From positions 1 to 49,722 of the forward strand of contig DAOUSL010000007.1 in assembly GCA_030627235.1 (NCBI GenBank): a stretch of 49,722 nt of DNA. Reading direction: 5' to 3'. The DNA is from Thioploca sp. (GTDB lineage Bacteria > Pseudomonadota > Gammaproteobacteria > Beggiatoales > Beggiatoaceae). This document shows positions 11,577 through 24,555 of the stretch, one piece after another (position 1 is the first letter of the stretch; each line of letters opens with the position of its first letter). The position numbers and the translations under genes were made by a program. Under the pieces are notes generated by a model. It made no database searches. It had not been told where the DNA came from and saw only the letters and a program-made list of their open reading frames with translations.

Positions 11577-11673
11577 TGTAGGATGTAATGAATTTACGAA
11601 TTACATCTTGATGCAATTCCCTTCGGTCATTGCATCCTACATTTATTTAACCTTCATTTAGGAAAGATGTCTA
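11577..11673. mobile_element. MITE-like element copy 1 (65-bp double-hairpin core, one terminal repeat)
   Basis: A 65-bp core (11577-11641), bounded by TGTAGGATG...CATCCTACA, contains two hairpins (GATGTAAT/ATTACATC and GATGCAAT/ATTGCATC). It is the inverted orientation of cores at 21035-21099 and 24452-24516, about 62 of 65 identical to the latter by eye. The right terminal repeat CATTTAGGAAAGATGTCTA (11655-11673) matches the family; the left one is missing or decayed. It lies between the convergent genes ilvA and hldD. Confidence 0.7.
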
Positions 11674-15337: not shown

Positions 15338-17356
15338 TTACTTTTTCCGTAATTCTTCAATAGTTTTTTCCTGTCCTTGTTCGTCAGTAAATTTCCAAAA
15401 TATCCAACCATTTTTCTTATTTTCTTTACCAGAAATATCTTTTGTAACTTCTATTGCAGCCCCATAAGGAGTGTATCTTTTACCTTGATATAATATTTCT
15501 TCTGTTTGCGGATAAAATTCTGCATATATTTTTTTCTTATAATAAGTAGCAAATACTTTCTTTTTTCTTGTTAATTTAATCTTTTTTGGTTTTTGATAAA
15601 ATTCTTTCTTAATATTGTTACTTACATTAATAACATTTTCTTTAATCAGATTAAATATTTTTTCTGCTCTTTCTTTAAGAAATTCTTGATATTCATCATC
15701 ATAGTATCCTTCAATAAGTTCAATAGTAATCAAATGACTTTCTAAAGATTTTTTCAGTTTTGAATTTCTTTCTTGAAGTTCACTTAAATATTTACTTGGG
15801 GTTTTTTTACCAATCTTGATATTGGTGATTTTAGGAATAAGTGTTCTATTAACTACGCTATCAGTTAATGATAAAATATCTCTATTATCCTTATATTGTG
15901 TTGTAATATATCCTCTTGGAAAAATATGATGATCGTCAAATTTACCTGTTTTAAATGAAAGACTACTAGTGTTGTTCCAATTGAGTAAACCTTTCGCTTG
16001 ATAATTGATTAAATTTAATACACCTTTATATACAGCACTTGCTTTTCTGGTATATAAATTTAATTCATCAGCATTATTTACTTGTGAACGTAATTTATAA
16101 AAATAATTACTATCTGTAATTTTTTCATTTTTTGCTATCTTTATTAACATTTGAGAATCTTGGATAATAACATCATGAGAAGATGCAGTGTATTTTTGTG
16201 CAAAAATAGTTGTCCAATACCAATATTTTATGAATTTATCTTGTGATTCAGATATTTGAGAAAATTCTCCACCTATTTCTTTCAAAAACATTATTAAGGG
16301 AATAAGCATATTTTCATAAGGCATCCATGATTGTGCTAAAACCATATGATTCTCATAAAGAAAATCTAAAGAATTTTTATACCAACTACATACTAATTCC
16401 CAATATTCATTAAAATGTTCTGGGGTTAAACTTTTCAAGATTCCTGACCGAGAAATATCTTGTTTTAACACAATAAAAGCAATTGAACGTACAATAATTT
16501 CTTTATTAAGTTTATAATGTTCTTTATTATGTTCGTCTTCAAAAGCATTAACATGATTTCTAAGATTAAATCCTTTATATAATTTAGCCGCTAAAATATC
16601 AATAAAATTTAGCTGCATTCCTTTGCTATTACTTCGTTCAAAAAATAAGGCAAATTTTTCCAAAGTTGTATCAAGTAAATAATACGATAAAAGTTTTTCT
16701 GATTTAAATAAATCATGTAGTTTATTTTTGATAGCTAAATAATTATTAAAAGCTATTTCATAATCCTTACCGTTAATATTTTTAGTATATTTTGCTTTAT
16801 CAAAGAAATTTTCTCTAATCTCTTTTTCACGGTAATTACTTTGCATCATCTCAAATACATCTGAAATTTTAATAGATAAGTTCTTACTTGATTGGTATCC
16901 TGAGAATTCAACTAATAGTTCTTCCAAAGTTAATTTACTTATATTTTCATCTTTGTCAATATTTCGTGCAATAAACCAAACTTCGTCAATACCGTGTAAT
17001 GCTCGATATAAAGAAGTTATTCTTTGTTGCCCATCAAGCAATAAACGAAAGCTATTACCAGCATTCAGTTTTTGATTAATTTCATTTTCTTCATATGATA
17101 TAGCAGTTAATTTTCTTCGGCTACCAGCACCATTTCTTGGTCTTTTATCTATTTCACGAGTTGTTATCGCAAATGACGGAACTCCGTAAATCATAGAACC
17201 AATAAAGATATTTTTGACAAGAGAATCAAATAAATCATAAGTTTTACTTACTTCCCATACAAAATTTCTTTGAAATTCTGGAAGCGTTATATTTTCTTTT
17301 TCAACATCATCTATCAATCTAATAATAGATACAGTATTACTTTCAACACTATTCAT
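15338..17356 (-). CDS. GmrSD-like DUF262/DUF1524 nuclease with C-terminal RAMA-like domain
   Basis: 672 aa. Residues about 8-300 are a DUF262 (ParB/Srx-like NTPase) domain with LPEFQRNFVWE (30-40) and the DGQQR motif at 108-112. The DUF1524 His-Me finger region follows, with DDHHIFPRGY (H476, H477) and downstream conserved Asn and Lys residues. Residues about 605-672 (YQGKRYTPYGAAIEVT then NGWIFW) resemble the RAMA module associated with modified-base recognition in restriction and methylase proteins. The GmrSD family comprises type IV restriction enzymes that cleave modified phage DNA; the RAMA-like tail would suit target recognition. It is very AT-rich, stands alone between repeats, and has no methylase partner, consistent with a horizontally acquired type IV system. 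Substrate unknown. Confidence 0.85.
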   Translation of the reverse strand: MNSVESNTVSIIRLIDDVEKENITLPEFQRNFVWEVSKTYDLFDSLVKNIFIGSMIYGVPSFAITTREIDKRPRNGAGSRRKLTAISYEENEINQKLNAGNSFRLLLDGQQRITSLYRALHGIDEVWFIARNIDKDENISKLTLEELLVEFSGYQSSKNLSIKISDVFEMMQSNYREKEIRENFFDKAKYTKNINGKDYEIAFNNYLAIKNKLHDLFKSEKLLSYYLLDTTLEKFALFFERSNSKGMQLNFIDILAAKLYKGFNLRNHVNAFEDEHNKEHYKLNKEIIVRSIAFIVLKQDISRSGILKSLTPEHFNEYWELVCSWYKNSLDFLYENHMVLAQSWMPYENMLIPLIMFLKEIGGEFSQISESQDKFIKYWYWTTIFAQKYTASSHDVIIQDSQMLIKIAKNEKITDSNYFYKLRSQVNNADELNLYTRKASAVYKGVLNLINYQAKGLLNWNNTSSLSFKTGKFDDHHIFPRGYITTQYKDNRDILSLTDSVVNRTLIPKITNIKIGKKTPSKYLSELQERNSKLKKSLESHLITIELIEGYYDDEYQEFLKERAEKIFNLIKENVINVSNNIKKEFYQKPKKIKLTRKKKVFATYYKKKIYAEFYPQTEEILYQGKRYTPYGAAIEVTKDISGKENKKNGWIFWKFTDEQGQEKTIEELRKK

Positions 17357-17440: not shown

Positions 17441-20400
17441 CTAATCCTTCCCTTCCTTCAACCCAAAAAAGTTCTCAATCTTATTTAAAAATCTCTTATA
17501 AACCGCATCTCTTTCAGTCTCAACATTATGCTGTACGTGCATCTGAGAACGAGTCAACATCTGTCTTTGGGTCAAAACCCTACTAACCATCTTCGACACT
17601 TCCGGTTGCTCTTCTATCAAAGGCCGAATATCAGCTTTCGTCAACTTAAATACATCAGTATCAACCAACGCAATCACAGTTGCCGTCCTACTTTCACCTG
17701 TCAACAACGCCATCTCTCCAAAGAAATCACCAGCTCCTAATCTAGCTACCTCTTTAGTCCTACCATCATCAGTCTCAACCTGAACTCCAACCACACCTTC
17801 CACCACAATAAACAAAGAATCACCCTGATCACCTTGCTTAACAATAACATCACCCTGACTAAAATGATAACGCTGAATTCTCTCACTAAGAAAAGTCTTA
17901 GCTTCCATAGAGAAATGTTTAAATATATCAATTTCCTGCAATAGAGTAATCGGTCTGGTAGCTTCCTTACCACCTCTCTCCTTAACTCCCTTAAACATAT
18001 AAATTTCTTGCCGTTGTACTGCTGGAGTGATGCCAGCCCGATTCAGATGGAACCAAACACGAGTCCAAACATCCTCTAAAATATAATTCTTATCTGCATA
18101 ATCATCAGCACAAAATGCAATCCAATAACTAGCCGCCCACTCATTAATTCCGGTAAATAAAACCACTGGTGCTGGTTCTCTCAATACTTTATCAGCCGAT
18201 AGTAACGCATCTAATAATATTTTTCTCACTCTATTTGGCGGATGCATCGGATGCACATACACCGTTGGCCATAACCAATACACATCATCCGGAAAGCAAA
18301 AATTCAAAATTGGTGATTCCGAAGCCATACTATTAGGAATACTTAAAATACACTCAGCCCTAGTTTTAATCCTAGTAGTCCGCCAAGTTATATCGATAAT
18401 TTCCCCTTCATCAAACTCACCAATTTGAACCCAATCTCCAATCCGAAAAGGTCGTTCTATATTGATCGCAATCCCAGAGAAAATGTTAGAAATATTAATC
18501 TGAATTGCCAAACCAATAATCATTGCAATAACACCAGAAGTAGCTAAAATACTGGTTAATTGTTGATCGTAAACGAAGGCTACAATTCCTACTAATGAGA
18601 AAAAATAAACCAAAAATGCTAAAAATATTCGTACTACATTGGGAATTAAGCGACCTGATTTTGCTTCTAATGGAGACCAAATAAAACTTTCAGAAGCTAA
18701 ATTAATCATGAAAGCTGGAGTTAACCACCACAAAATATCAAATATTCGGATAATAACTTCCATCTTATAAGTTTCAATATTACCAAAATTTACTAGAACA
18801 ATTTCCCCAGATAATAATAGTAAAAATGCTAAACTAGTTTGGAAAAACCAAATTAACTTTGACAAACTACGAAATTTCTTCGAAGCAACATTAAGTAATA
18901 TAATAAAAATAACACTTAATACAATGATGTTTTGAGCATAGCTATAAGACAATTTACCCCGTAAAGTAAATTCATTCTTTTTAACCAAAATAGTAGCACT
19001 AAACCTAGAATAATCAATAGTTCCACCTTGCACATTAAGATATTCTGGATCACCTAAGGAAAACTTTTTAGCTACATCTTGAAAGAACCTAACCTGTTCT
19101 GGACTCCAACCACTAACAGGGCTAAGAACTTGATCATCTTGTATTTTTTTCAATACAGTCTTAGCTTTACCCATACCTAATACATCAGTAACATAAATTA
19201 AATTATTTCTAGTTAAATATTTATGGTGAAAACTAATCCCAATAATATGTTGTTTATACGCAAAATTGCTCGCCAAAAAATCAGCTTTAAATTTACCTTT
19301 AATTTTATATACACTATAAGTAATTTGGTCTTTGGTTTTAGGCCCTTCAATCGGATTTTCTAATTGATCTTCCAACTCTTTTGGGTTTACTGCATTTAAG
19401 AATTCAATCTGCTGAGGTTTAAAATTACCTTGAGAACGAAACCATAAATTAAAATCTAACATTACAGTTAAATTATTAAAATCTGGATCACTAATTTCAT
19501 TAATTTTAATACCTGTATAAACAACATTGGTTTTATACATTGGTTTATCACCAATCATCAATATCTGTTCATTGTTTTCAGCTGCTTTTAAATCAGAAAT
19601 TTCATTTAAATTACGAATTACCCGGAATTGAGTTAGAGCAGAAACAATATTTTTATTTTTGTATACTCCAATAGCTACTGGCTTTTGGGCATCACGATTA
19701 TCATCAAAATAGTTAAAACCGGTTGCTCCTTCTATAGCCTGATTAATATCATTAAAACTTGCTAAAGCATCCCGTAATTTAGCTCGATCCTCTTTAATAT
19801 TTTCTATATCACCATCTATATTGGCTTTTTTAATTGCTTCTACTAATACCATGACAGTATCATAAGCATAAGCTGCTGACCAATCTATCTCCTCAGTAGT
19901 TGGATATTTTTCCTTATATTGTTCTTGAAATTTTTGGGCTTTTTCATTAGCCGTATCAAATATTAAAGGAGTAGCAACATAAATATCATTAGTATAATAA
20001 CCAGGATTAATTTTTTCCTGAGGATATTTATCAAACCCTTCTTGAAAGGTTCGTTCAGAAAAACTAGAACCACCTAAAATAGCATTTGGTATATTCTTAT
20101 CTTTGATTAATTTAACTATTTTTACTGCATCAGTGGCTTGAACAGCTAATAAAATAGCTCCTGCTTGGTCTTTATTTTGTTCAAGTTTTTTAACAATATT
20201 TTCAAATTCTTGAACTTTATTTTTATCATCCTTCTTAAATTTATACTTGGTAATCTTCATCCCTAATTCTACGCTAGCATTTTCAAACATTTCTGCTAAG
20301 TAAGAACCATAGCCACTACTATCGTCAATAATTGTAACCTGGTTAAATTTAAATACTTGCTTAACGTAATGAGCTAGAAATTGTCCAGAAGCACTACCTT

Positions 20401-20842
20401 TATAAATATTCCTAAAATACCATTCATTATCTTTAGTTACTTTTACACTTACTGAACCAGGAGTTATAGCTGGGATTCCATATTTTTTATATATTTTTCC
20501 ACCAGTTATAGAACAACTACTATACCAATGCCCGATAACTGCAATAGCTTGATTTTCTTCAACTATTCTGGTAGCTTCACTATAAGCAGCTCCTTTTCCT
20601 TCACATTCATTTTTATCATCAAATTCTAGTAGTTTTAATTTTTTATTATCTGGTAATATTTTATTTTCATTAACTTGATCTATATATAATTTAATTGCAT
20701 TAGTCATTGTTTTCCCAGCACCTTCCATAGGACCGGCAAAAGCAATATATATAGTCTCTCCATCTTCTTTTATAATATCTTGGGAAAACCAAATAACAAC
20801 AAATAGGATGATAGTGGCCATCAAGAAAATATTAATTTTCAT
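17441..20842 (-). CDS. Periplasmic-binding domain - beta domain - MscS channel - cNMP-binding domain fusion
   Basis: 1133 aa. Order: signal anchor (about 5-21); LIVBP-type periplasmic-binding domain (about 28-410; VIGHWYSSCSITGGKIYKKY and GIPAITPGS); a beta-rich region (about 436-632) whose landmarks parallel the extracellular domain of pentameric ligand-gated channels (TGI start, FNLWFR, IEFLNAV, a Q at the FPFDxQ position, SGW, and a strand running into the first helix); five hydrophobic segments (about 635-790); the MscS pore helix and beta domain (ATSGVIAMIIGLAIQ, ERPFRIGDWVQIG near 795-807); and a cyclic-nucleotide-binding domain (about 985-1110) with GEMALLTGESRTATV, E1043 and R1052 in place. 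It should be an inner-membrane channel with periplasmic ligand input and cytoplasmic cNMP input. It has a paralogue upstream. Transport of ions versus solutes is unknown. Confidence 0.88.
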   Translation of the reverse strand: MKINIFLMATIILFVVIWFSQDIIKEDGETIYIAFAGPMEGAGKTMTNAIKLYIDQVNENKILPDNKKLKLLEFDDKNECEGKGAAYSEATRIVEENQAIAVIGHWYSSCSITGGKIYKKYGIPAITPGSVSVKVTKDNEWYFRNIYKGSASGQFLAHYVKQVFKFNQVTIIDDSSGYGSYLAEMFENASVELGMKITKYKFKKDDKNKVQEFENIVKKLEQNKDQAGAILLAVQATDAVKIVKLIKDKNIPNAILGGSSFSERTFQEGFDKYPQEKINPGYYTNDIYVATPLIFDTANEKAQKFQEQYKEKYPTTEEIDWSAAYAYDTVMVLVEAIKKANIDGDIENIKEDRAKLRDALASFNDINQAIEGATGFNYFDDNRDAQKPVAIGVYKNKNIVSALTQFRVIRNLNEISDLKAAENNEQILMIGDKPMYKTNVVYTGIKINEISDPDFNNLTVMLDFNLWFRSQGNFKPQQIEFLNAVNPKELEDQLENPIEGPKTKDQITYSVYKIKGKFKADFLASNFAYKQHIIGISFHHKYLTRNNLIYVTDVLGMGKAKTVLKKIQDDQVLSPVSGWSPEQVRFFQDVAKKFSLGDPEYLNVQGGTIDYSRFSATILVKKNEFTLRGKLSYSYAQNIIVLSVIFIILLNVASKKFRSLSKLIWFFQTSLAFLLLLSGEIVLVNFGNIETYKMEVIIRIFDILWWLTPAFMINLASESFIWSPLEAKSGRLIPNVVRIFLAFLVYFFSLVGIVAFVYDQQLTSILATSGVIAMIIGLAIQINISNIFSGIAINIERPFRIGDWVQIGEFDEGEIIDITWRTTRIKTRAECILSIPNSMASESPILNFCFPDDVYWLWPTVYVHPMHPPNRVRKILLDALLSADKVLREPAPVVLFTGINEWAASYWIAFCADDYADKNYILEDVWTRVWFHLNRAGITPAVQRQEIYMFKGVKERGGKEATRPITLLQEIDIFKHFSMEAKTFLSERIQRYHFSQGDVIVKQGDQGDSLFIVVEGVVGVQVETDDGRTKEVARLGAGDFFGEMALLTGESRTATVIALVDTDVFKLTKADIRPLIEEQPEVSKMVSRVLTQRQMLTRSQMHVQHNVETERDAVYKRFLNKIENFFGLKEGKD

Positions 20843-21007
20843 GTTTTTATTTACTCTAAAAAGAATTCTTTATGTTGATAGATTAATATAAATTTTTTGT
20901 TAATAGTCATGATATATCTATAATTATATCAAATTATTATTATATGTAATATTTATCTTACAAGTATTGTTTATAAATAAGGACATAATATCAATACTTA
21001 ATGATAA

Positions 21008-21193
21008 TAGACATAATTCCTAAATAAGGATATATGTAGGATGCAATGAACGAAGGAAATTGCATCAAGATATAATTCGTAAACTCATTACATCCTACAA
21101 AAAGTTCGTAATTAACTGTATAGCTTTAGTCAATTTCACGTCGGTAATACAATCATACTTAGCTATGATTACTTATTTAGGAAACTCTGTCTA
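21008..21193. mobile_element. MITE-like element copy 2, full length (186 bp), abutting a stop codon
   Basis: Terminal repeats TAGACATAATTCCTAAATAA (21008-21027) and TTATTTAGG...GTCTA (21173-21193) start and end with TA. The 65-bp core at 21035-21099 has two hairpins and is about 62/65 identical to the core at 24452-24516. Its right edge is directly adjacent to the TAA of the 979-aa channel gene (21194-21196). TA-flanked inverted repeats suggest mobilisation by an IS630/Tc1-type transposase, none of which is in the window. The remaining gap to the 1133-aa gene (20843-21007) shows nothing. Confidence 0.72.
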
Positions 21194-24133
21194 TTAACGT
21201 CTTGGTCTATGATCTTTCTGATCTGGTAATAATACATCGACCTCAGTTACAGTCGGAATCTTTTTATCACCTTTAAAAACATGTACTTCTTGTCGCATTA
21301 CTGCTGGTTCAATATTAGCATTATCAAGATAAACCCAAACTTTATTCCATACATCTTCTAAAATAAAATTCTTATCACCGTAATTATCTGCACAAAAAGC
21401 AATCCAATAAGATGCTGACCATTCGTTAATACCAACAAATAACACCATTGGTTCCGGTTTTTTTAAAACTTTGTCTGAGGTCAATAAAGCATCTAATAAT
21501 AGTTGTTTTATTTTTTCTGGATGGTGACGTGGATGAACATATACTGTTGGCCAAAGCCAATATGTTTCATCAGGGTAATGGAAATTAAGAATTACTGATT
21601 CTGAAGCTATACTATTAGGAATGCTTAATGTGCAGCCAGACCTATTTCTGATTCTAGTAGCTCGCCAGTTAATGTCTACTACTTCACCTTCTTCAAGCCC
21701 TGCTATTTGTACCCAATCACCGATTCTAAATGGCCGTTCCATATTAATCACAATCCCAGAAAATACGTTAGAAATATTAACTTGAATTGCTAAACCTATA
21801 ATCATAGCTAACATACCTGAAGTAGCTAATAAAGAAGTGAATTCTTTTTCATAAACAAATACAATAATACAGGTAATAGCCATTATATAGACTGCCATTG
21901 CAAAAAAATTGCGGATGATATTAGGAATAGGCCCAGTTTTTTCTTCTAATGGAGTCCAGATAAAACGTTCTGCTGCTACATTGATTAAAGCTGCTGGTAT
22001 CATCCACCATAATATGCCAAAAATTCTAACAATAAGTTCCATTTGATGGATATTACTGCTTTCTGATAACCAATCTGAAAATATGATAACTTCAGCTGAT
22101 AGTAAAAACATAAAAGCTAACAGCACTTGAAAAAACCAAACTACTTGGGAAAATCTTTGTTTCTTGTTAGTAACAATTGCTAATAATAAAAATAATAAAC
22201 CGCTAATTATGGCTAAATGATATGAGAATTTATAAGGCACCATGCCTCGTAAAGTGAACTGTCCCATTTTTATTTGAATTACTGAGTTAAACCTAGAATA
22301 TTCAATTAATCCATCTGAGGAATTAAGATGGTCTGGATCGCCACCAGAATATTCTCTAGTAATTTGGGAAAAAAACCAGGTTCTAGTCATCAACCAACCA
22401 GAAATTGGATTTATTATCTTATTTTTTGTTAACCGCTGAATTAATTCTTTTTCACTGGTTAGCCCCATTCCTAATATGTCTGTAACATATACTAAGTTAT
22501 TACGAGTTAAAGAATGATGCCGAAAACTTATCCCTAAAATATGTTGTCTAAATAAATAATAATCTGAAATAAAATCAGTTTTAAATTTTGCTTTGATTCT
22601 ATACACTTTATAGGTAATATTAGTTTTAGTTTTAGTTTTAGTTTCAATTGGTTTTTTAAGTTGTTCAGCAATCTTATCTGGTTCAATTGTATTAGAAAAT
22701 TCTATATCTGCTGGATTAAAATCACCTTGAAATCTAAACCATAATTTAAACTCTAAAGTGGCTAATAAATTTTTTACATCGATATCAGTTATATTGAAAA
22801 ACTCAACTCCAGTATAAACAACATTGGTTTTATACATATATTTATTATCAATACTAATGATACGATCTTCTTTACGTGCTTGATTTAAATCAGATATTTC
22901 ATTAAGACTGCGTATTGGCTTTAATTGTGTTAATGCAGAAACTGATCTTTTATTTTTATATACCCCCAATGATACTGGTTTTTGAGCATCTCTTGTGTCA
23001 TCAAAATAATTTAAACCGGTAACACCCTTGATTCCAGCATAAACATTATTAAAACTTGCTAAAATATCTCGAACTTTTTGTCGTTTTTCTGTAATAGTTT
23101 GTTCAACAATTCCAATTTTAGCTTTTTTAATAGCTTCTACCACTAGCATAGCGCTATCATAAGCATAAGCAGCTGACCAATCAGCATCTTCTTGGTATTT
23201 TGTCTGATAATCTTCTTTAAATTTTTGGGCTTTTTCGTTAGCAGTATCAAAGATTAGTGGAGTTGCGACGTAAATATCATTTATATAAAAACCAGGATAT
23301 TCTTTTTCGATTGGAAAATGTTCAAAACCATCTAGGAAGGTTTGTTCAGATAATGAAGATGCCCCTATAATGGTATTACGAATCCCGGCATCTTTAATTA
23401 ATTTAACTAATTCAACTCCTTCAGTTGCTTGCACTGCTAATAAAATTATTCCAGCATCTTTATCCTTTAATTCATTAATAATTTTGATAAATTTATTAGA
23501 TAAGTCTTTATCGTTATTGTCATATTGCCAATCATTTTTTACCACTATATCTAACTTTTTAGATTCTTGTTTAAAAATCTCTGCTAAATAAGAACCATAG
23601 GCAGCTTTTTCACGAATAATTGTAACATTGTTTTGTTTAAATACATTTTTAACATAATTAGCTAAAAATTTACCAGAAGCAGTTGCGTTGTAAATATTTC
23701 TAAAATACCATTCGTTATCTTGAGTTACCGCTAAATTAGTTGATCCTGGAGTAATAGCAGGAATTTTATATTCTTTATATACTTTCCCTGCACTTATTGA
23801 AGCTGAACTATACCAATGTCCAATAACAGCTATTGCTTTATTTTGTTCTATTATTTTAATAGCCTGCTGTTTAGCTACTTCAGCATTATTTTTATCATCA
23901 AAGGTATCTAATACAATTTTTTTGCCATTTATGCCACCTTTCTTATTAATTTCATCAAAATATAGTTGAATAGCTTGGCTCATCAACTTACCGGCAGTAG
24001 CACCATCACCAGATAAAGGGCCTGCAAAAGCAACATGTATAGATTTTCCGTATGTTTTTTGCACATATGAATATGTCAACCAAATTGCGGCAAGTAAAAT
24101 AATTATCCCTACCAGAAAAGCTTTTACTTTCAT
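21194..24133 (-). CDS. Periplasmic-binding domain - beta domain - MscS channel fusion (no cNMP domain)
   Basis: 979 aa, paralogue of the downstream 1133-aa protein along its whole length up to the end of MscS. Signal anchor (about 7-24), LIVBP-type domain (about 30-410, VIGHWYSSASISAGKVYKEY), pLGIC-extracellular-like beta region (about 434-640: TGVEFF, FKLWFRFQGDF, IEFSNTI, FRQHILGISF, SGW), five membrane segments, then MscS (ATSGMLAMIIGLAIQ, ERPFRIGDWVQIAG near 798-811). It ends 20-odd residues after the point where the paralogue enters its cyclic-nucleotide domain, with a MITE immediately behind the stop. It may therefore be a naturally shorter form or one trimmed by that insertion. The pair could form mixed oligomers; this is inference. 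Confidence 0.87.
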   Translation of the reverse strand: MKVKAFLVGIIILLAAIWLTYSYVQKTYGKSIHVAFAGPLSGDGATAGKLMSQAIQLYFDEINKKGGINGKKIVLDTFDDKNNAEVAKQQAIKIIEQNKAIAVIGHWYSSASISAGKVYKEYKIPAITPGSTNLAVTQDNEWYFRNIYNATASGKFLANYVKNVFKQNNVTIIREKAAYGSYLAEIFKQESKKLDIVVKNDWQYDNNDKDLSNKFIKIINELKDKDAGIILLAVQATEGVELVKLIKDAGIRNTIIGASSLSEQTFLDGFEHFPIEKEYPGFYINDIYVATPLIFDTANEKAQKFKEDYQTKYQEDADWSAAYAYDSAMLVVEAIKKAKIGIVEQTITEKRQKVRDILASFNNVYAGIKGVTGLNYFDDTRDAQKPVSLGVYKNKRSVSALTQLKPIRSLNEISDLNQARKEDRIISIDNKYMYKTNVVYTGVEFFNITDIDVKNLLATLEFKLWFRFQGDFNPADIEFSNTIEPDKIAEQLKKPIETKTKTKTNITYKVYRIKAKFKTDFISDYYLFRQHILGISFRHHSLTRNNLVYVTDILGMGLTSEKELIQRLTKNKIINPISGWLMTRTWFFSQITREYSGGDPDHLNSSDGLIEYSRFNSVIQIKMGQFTLRGMVPYKFSYHLAIISGLLFLLLAIVTNKKQRFSQVVWFFQVLLAFMFLLSAEVIIFSDWLSESSNIHQMELIVRIFGILWWMIPAALINVAAERFIWTPLEEKTGPIPNIIRNFFAMAVYIMAITCIIVFVYEKEFTSLLATSGMLAMIIGLAIQVNISNVFSGIVINMERPFRIGDWVQIAGLEEGEVVDINWRATRIRNRSGCTLSIPNSIASESVILNFHYPDETYWLWPTVYVHPRHHPEKIKQLLLDALLTSDKVLKKPEPMVLFVGINEWSASYWIAFCADNYGDKNFILEDVWNKVWVYLDNANIEPAVMRQEVHVFKGDKKIPTVTEVDVLLPDQKDHRPRR

Positions 24134-24420: not shown

Positions 24421-24555
24421 TAGACATCTATCCTAAATAAGGTTAAATAAATGTAGGATGCAATGAACGAAGTGAATTGCATCAAGATGTAATTCGTAAA
24501 CTCATTACATCCTACATAAAGTACATAATTATTCGTTATTTAGGAAAGATATCTA
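24421..24555. mobile_element. MITE-like element copy 3, full length (135 bp)
   Basis: Terminal repeats TAGACATCTATCCTAAATAA (24421-24440) and TTATTTAGGAAAGATATCTA (24536-24555) match at 18 of 20 positions and carry TA at both ends. The core (24452-24516) forms GATGCAAT/ATTGCATC and GATGTAAT/ATTACATC hairpins inside an outer TGTAGG/CCTACA stem. It has the same orientation as the copy at 21008-21193, so the two bracket the 979-aa channel gene in direct orientation. Confidence 0.75.

Follow-up and report, generated by a model that had tools for sequence, protein, structure and literature searches.

The window analysed here, a 49,722-nucleotide stretch of DNA from the large sulfur bacterium Thioploca sp., carries two neighbouring open reading frames on its minus strand, both of which an ORF check of the window found intact and at the positions given by an earlier sequence-only reading. 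The gene for a 979-aa protein (24133-21194) is transcribed first and is followed, after a gap of 351 bases, by the gene for a 1133-aa protein (20842-17441). Each protein combines a periplasmic binding protein (PBP) domain, an ectodomain of the pentameric ligand-gated channel (pLGIC) type, five transmembrane (TM) helices and an MscS core, laid out as follows.

17441..20842, minus strand: gene for the 1133-aa protein (anchor, PBP, pLGIC-type ectodomain, five TM helices, MscS core and cNMP domain)
20771..20839, minus strand: N-terminal hydrophobic helix, signal peptide or anchor, residues 2-24 of the 1133-aa protein (AF2, hydropathy)
19658..20740, minus strand: Peripla_BP_6 / LivJ-like binding domain, residues 35-395 of the 1133-aa protein (Pfam E 8.6e-30; Foldseek LivJ 4gnr E 7.9e-21)
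18953..19540, minus strand: pLGIC-type (Cys-loop receptor) ectodomain, residues 435-630 of the 1133-aa protein (AF2, fold comparison, homology to own-genome pLGICs)
19247..19264, minus strand: site of the lost Pro-loop motif, residues 527-532 of the 1133-aa protein, FAYKQH against YPFDxQ (alignment)
18572..18946, minus strand: TM helices 1-4, residues 633-757 of the 1133-aa protein (AF2, hydropathy)
18455..18559, minus strand: TM5, the MscS pore helix (SILATSGVIAMIIGLAIQINISNIFSGIAINIE), residues 762-796 of the 1133-aa protein (Pfam, AF2)
18029..18454, minus strand: MscS beta and alpha/beta vestibule domains, residues 797-938 of the 1133-aa protein (PF00924 4e-17; PF21082 20.7 bits, cut-off 21)
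17609..17866, minus strand: cyclic-nucleotide-binding (cNMP) domain, residues 993-1078 of the 1133-aa protein, with phosphate-binding cassette FGEMALLTGESRTAT (PF00027 1.5e-25)
21194..24133, minus strand: gene for the 979-aa protein (PBP, pLGIC-type ectodomain, five TM helices and MscS core, without a cNMP domain)
22970..24040, minus strand: Peripla_BP_6 domain, residues 32-388 of the 979-aa protein (Pfam E 6.2e-45; PDB LivJ-type matches)
22244..22837, minus strand: pLGIC-type ectodomain, residues 433-630 of the 979-aa protein (identity to the ectodomain of the 1133-aa protein and to own-genome pLGICs)
21785..22228, minus strand: five TM helices, residues 636-783 of the 979-aa protein (hydropathy, alignment)
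21308..21775, minus strand: MscS beta and alpha/beta domains, residues 787-942 of the 979-aa protein (PF00924 7.6e-18)

A GmrSD_N (DUF262)-type restriction endonuclease subunit (15338-17356, minus strand) lies directly downstream of the channel pair. Furthermore, a dispersed repeat of about 63 bp with palindromic ends (GTAGGATGCAATGA...CATCCTAC) occurs in three copies in the window, where none is expected; two of them (21036-21098 and 24453-24515) flank the 979-aa gene and the third lies on the minus strand at 11578-11640.

The sequence-only reading had called a LIVBP-type binding domain and an MscS core in both proteins, five helices ahead of that core and a cNMP domain in one protein, and all of these calls were borne out by the matches listed above. 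The binding domain of the 1133-aa protein has the two-lobe LivJ fold (TM-score on the target 4gnr of 0.88). MscS-superfamily homology extends over the pore helix and upper vestibule in both proteins, with PF00924 and the MscS and MscK models matching, and ERPFRIGDWVQI is common to the two. Pfam found a cNMP domain in the 1133-aa protein and none in the 979-aa protein, and the bCNG-type layout of an MscS pore with a C-terminal cNMP domain and its binding cassette is thus confined to the former; within this domain E1043 and R1052 are more than 90% conserved among 33 relatives. The AF2 model of the full 1133-aa protein (pLDDT 80.8, pTM 0.58) begins with an N-terminal helix and the PBP, to which an all-beta domain is attached at 427-622. 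Membrane helices follow at 633-656, 658-684, 691-729, 735-757 and 762-796, and the chain ends in the MscS cage and then the cNMP domain; hydropathy likewise indicated five helices between ectodomain and MscS core. With a full-length pTM of 0.58, we do not trust the packing of the domains in this model. As the number of TM helices is odd, the PBP and ectodomain are predicted to be periplasmic and the MscS cage and cNMP domain cytoplasmic. The matches listed by Foldseek for the full-length model were all binding proteins, of the LivJ type together with the related GABA-B and mGluR ectodomains, which the binding domain also resembles, and this search is therefore uninformative on the other parts of the protein.

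The middle domain of about 195 residues received no Pfam or NCBIfam call in either protein. We predicted its structure with AF2 from residues 429-634 of the 1133-aa protein, using an alignment (n=77) in which every sequence came from an MscS-core protein, so that no pLGIC could steer the predicted fold. The resulting model (mean pLDDT 88.6, pTM 0.83) is a beta-sandwich of the kind that forms the ligand-binding ectodomain of the pLGIC superfamily: the best 50 Foldseek rows were acetylcholine-binding protein (AChBP), nicotinic and GABA-A receptors and ELIC, with E down to 1.3e-8, and structure comparison gave Z of 14.3-14.9 (GABA-A 8g5f 14.9, ELIC 8twv 14.7, sTeLIC 6fvs 14.5) over about 160-172 aligned residues, with Z at least 8 for all 1000 chains compared. 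In contrast, the sequence profile of the MscS-type ectodomains found no pLGIC in the PDB, and the link to GLIC consequently runs through intermediates and structure, not sequence alone. The ectodomains of the two window proteins are 49-50% identical.

Such intermediates are present in the same genome. In its 4.58 Mb (471 contigs) we found 12 loci with the ectodomain, seven of them on an MscS pore (two with a cNMP domain) and five on a pLGIC-type four-helix pore, and the latter five carry the same PBP before the ectodomain. MscS-type and pLGIC-type ectodomains of this genome are 31-37% identical (31-36% for the 979-aa protein); BLAST of the window ectodomain against the own-genome pLGICs reached E 4.9e-22, and hhalign of the two kinds of ectodomain profile reached E 2.5e-46 over 183 columns. 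Among the own-genome pLGIC-type proteins, L020 has matches to GLIC structures at about 1e-10 over its second half. A related pLGIC-type protein, L117, matches Neur_chan_memb at 32.4 bits (cut-off 28.1), and others match Neur_chan_LBD when the whole frame is searched. Together, structure, the same-genome sequence bridge and the rooted phylogeny described below support the assignment of the middle domain as a pLGIC-type ectodomain, and the likeness to GLIC that had been seen by eye over about 200 residues holds up. The MscS domains are likewise present at about residues 750-930, where they had been placed.

Several of these pLGIC-type proteins have features of their own. L016 and L018 of the same genome are close siblings, and L018 (contig C282) is broken by an in-frame TAA inside the ectodomain; it is probably either decaying or affected by a sequencing error. 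L016 (2630-6142, minus strand) and L117 (4618-8253, plus strand) are PBP-fused pLGICs with an additional C-terminal SBP_bac_1 domain beyond the last membrane helix. If pLGIC topology applies, this domain would be periplasmic, and each of these pLGICs would carry two different binding proteins. The own-genome PBP-pLGIC genes L020 and L021 each lie just downstream of a gene for an OppA-like peptide-binding protein, an arrangement similar to the pLGIC / PBP-II neighbourhoods that were described in 2004.

Within the window's own family, 27 of the 37 genomes searched contained the ectodomain. Among relatives overall it was found in 29 of 58, the two outside the family being PBP-less pLGICs, and in the phylum in 43 of 398 sampled genomes. 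The best matches to the window ectodomain were Halobeggiatoa and Thioploca records (92%), from which the host is probably a bacterium similar to Halobeggiatoa. Among named genomes, the PBP-ectodomain-MscS chimera is present in those of Halobeggiatoa, Thioploca, Parabeggiatoa and Thiomargarita and, beyond these Beggiatoa-type bacteria, in members of the Desulfobacterota, Magnetococcales and Rhodospirillales (one being the named strain Magnetospirillum moscoviense BB-1), of SAR324 and the Gallionellaceae, and in others. L042:1402-2196 (minus strand) encodes 265 aa with the ectodomain, a TM helix and possibly a signal peptide, but no PBP; it may be a stand-alone ectodomain protein or a fragment. 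In Candidatus Parabeggiatoa HSG14, the same PBP and ectodomain are followed by about 2-3 hydrophobic helices and a P-loop NTPase-like domain (L088:4621-7995, plus strand; GESGLGKT, weak AAA_22 match); this protein has no channel and is nested in the MscS-type clade, and the sensor unit seems to have moved again, to an NTPase-like output.

When the ectodomain tree was rooted with PBP-less pLGICs, the 96 MscS-type and derived rows formed one clade (SH-aLRT 99.7) with the pLGIC-type rows outside it. The unrooted tree gave the same grouping (support 99), and the nearest neighbours of the clade include Beggiatoa-type PBP-pLGICs. Since all MscS chimeras thus fall in one clade nested among pLGICs, the phylogeny points to a single pore swap, apparently an ancient replacement of the pLGIC pore by an MscS pore. 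The PBP tree, on the other hand, has long branches and no clean split, with Beggiatoa-type pLGIC clamps placed among MscS-type ones, and the clamp may therefore have been exchanged; we make no claim that clamp and ectodomain always moved together.

An acidic Cys-loop residue and a basic residue before the membrane have been described as universal in the superfamily and probably related to gating (Tasneem et al. 2004, PMC549065), and the loop proline as its only absolutely conserved residue (Jaiteh et al. 2016, PMC4795631). The P, D and Q of the Pro-loop (PxDxQ) and the pre-M1 Arg were all present in 19 of 19 pLGIC-type sequences. In the MscS-type set, however, none of 91 sequences had the Pro-loop motif; the Asp was retained in 3 of 91 and the pre-M1 Arg in 2 of 91 (Lys in 41 of 91), so that the acidic/basic pair is gone as a pair. 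The 1133-aa protein has A528 at the proline, K530 at the acidic position and K622 at the pre-M1 site. The sequence-only reading had seen a Q where FPFDxQ sits; Q531 does exist, but the Q column aligns with His532, and the P and D are gone. Residues kept in both kinds form a core of G444, W467, F468, R469, D553, W579 and S612, whereas G535 (0.98), F538 (0.99) and H540 (0.95), and also L555-G556, are near-invariant in the MscS-type set instead. Moreover, YKTNVVY, which joins the PBP to the ectodomain, is conserved in this set to about 90% or higher at every residue. The new loop pattern and the junction suggest selection on coupling, and such turnover of coupling residues would be expected of an ectodomain that has come to act on another pore. 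No Neur_chan_memb match was found in the window proteins, which have five TM helices and an MscS core in place of the four-TM pore. Lacking both Pro-loop and four-TM pore, they are not pLGICs but rather MscS-superfamily channels with a pLGIC ectodomain.

We consider it probable that these proteins are chimeric channels of natural origin, with a five-TM MscS pore, acquired in one pore swap, that bears a LivJ-like clamp and a pLGIC-type ectodomain, and that they are ligand-gated. Their anatomy and origin we regard as nearly certain, while ligand gating of the MscS pore is a good deal less so, albeit still the likelier outcome. That the middle domain is an unrelated beta-sandwich merely resembling a pLGIC ectodomain, as the missing Pfam match and the profile without a PDB sequence match might suggest, is contradicted by its direct homology to same-genome pLGICs, the matching fold and the rooted tree, and is improbable in the extreme. 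Alternatively, the ectodomain could be a passive spacer or assembly ring on a pore that is gated by tension as in MscS, with the clamp tuning tension sensitivity. The canonical MscS pore helix and cage (Pfam) and the disappearance of the pLGIC coupling residues fit such a role, but the lost loop has been replaced by the conserved G535, F538 and H540, the junction is conserved as well, and some MscS-superfamily members with large added domains lack tension gating (PMC4560390); we hold this alternative to be unlikely. Far less likely still is a non-channel receptor whose pore is a transduction scaffold and whose output is the cNMP domain or another cytoplasmic part. The NTPase-like protein of Candidatus Parabeggiatoa HSG14 indicates that the same PBP-ectodomain sensor can serve other outputs, yet in many MscS chimeras nothing else cytoplasmic follows the MscS part, and the Gly, Ala and Asn positions of the pore helix are invariant or nearly so.

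For the ligand-gated chimera that we favour, the origin and working can be pictured as follows. On a single occasion, the ectodomain of a PBP-fused pLGIC would have parted from its own four-helix pore and become joined to an MscS pore. The clamp, more likely the primary sensor than the ectodomain, would bind a small periplasmic solute (an amino acid, an amide or a related acid), and its closure would pass via the conserved junction to the ectodomain and move it. Through the short linker to TM1 the ectodomain would then open or close the MscS pore, and opening would release ions or solutes or depolarise the cell. A cyclic nucleotide bound through the canonical cassette FGEMALLTGESRTAT may modulate the 1133-aa subunit from the cytoplasm.

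The order of the two genes is conserved. All 13 other loci at which a chimera without and a chimera with a cNMP domain adjoin keep the window's order (the one without first) and strand, with gaps of 26-1350 bases, and at a fourteenth locus, L098, two chimeras without a cNMP domain adjoin. In the unrooted ectodomain tree one clade (98) gathers most of the upstream members, and the downstream orthologues belong to the same clade of 26 rows. That an old duplication has kept its order suggests that the pair functions jointly, and the two proteins may co-assemble as a heteromer. MscS is a heptamer, whereas the ectodomains of pLGICs are pentameric, so one of the two parts must depart from its usual ring.

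PBP-I-fused bacterial pLGICs are known, for example from Magnetospirillum and Bradyrhizobium (Tasneem et al. 2004, PMC549065). Like the chimeras, they have an N-terminal type-I binding protein followed by a pLGIC ligand-binding domain; unlike them, they keep the ligand-binding domain and four-TM core (PMC549065), where the chimeras have an MscS pore and neither Pro-loop nor pre-M1 Arg. DeCLIC (PMC9897478) similarly has a pLGIC ectodomain with an additional periplasmic N-terminal domain, but its extra lobes are jelly rolls, unlike a PBP, and it retains a genuine pLGIC pore. AChBP, to which the best Foldseek matches belong, is also a pLGIC ectodomain apart from a pLGIC pore; it is soluble and pore-less, however, while the chimera ectodomain is joined to another channel. 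On the pore side, the chimeras share the pore helix, beta-domain and alpha/beta cage with the MscS / YnaI / MscK family, and their five TM helices with YnaI, but add a periplasmic sensor unit of about 600 residues. MscS proteins with ligand-binding or cNMP domains are known subfamilies according to PMC4560390, which also presents bCNG channels as MscS-superfamily members with a C-terminal cNMP domain (Caldwell et al. 2010, cited in PMC4560390). The 1133-aa protein shares with the bCNGs the MscS pore and cytoplasmic cNMP domain. To our knowledge, bCNGs have neither a PBP nor a pLGIC ectodomain, unlike this protein. PBP-MscS fusions as such may already be listed in MscS-superfamily reviews, but in the open-licence literature we found no description of an MscS protein with a pLGIC ectodomain.

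If true, this would be a ligand-gated channel design that we have not found described. Tentatively, the chimeras may represent a separate class of ligand-gated channel, in which evolution has re-wired a pLGIC ectodomain to a pore that is unrelated and normally heptameric. As many as three signals (a periplasmic solute, membrane tension and a cytoplasmic cyclic nucleotide) would act on such a channel, the two tandem subunits would form a heteromer, and either the ectodomain ring would not be pentameric or the MscS pore not heptameric. Chimeras of pLGICs have been made in laboratories to probe the coupling between binding domain and pore. Here, evolution would have replaced the pore by an unrelated one, keeping the ectodomain fold, dropping two supposedly universal coupling elements and gaining new conserved residues. 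The minimal rules of ectodomain-pore coupling would thereby become directly testable, and a question of symmetry arises, since the sensor family is fivefold and the pore family sevenfold. Moreover, these proteins would offer a natural template for ligand-gated large-conductance valves.
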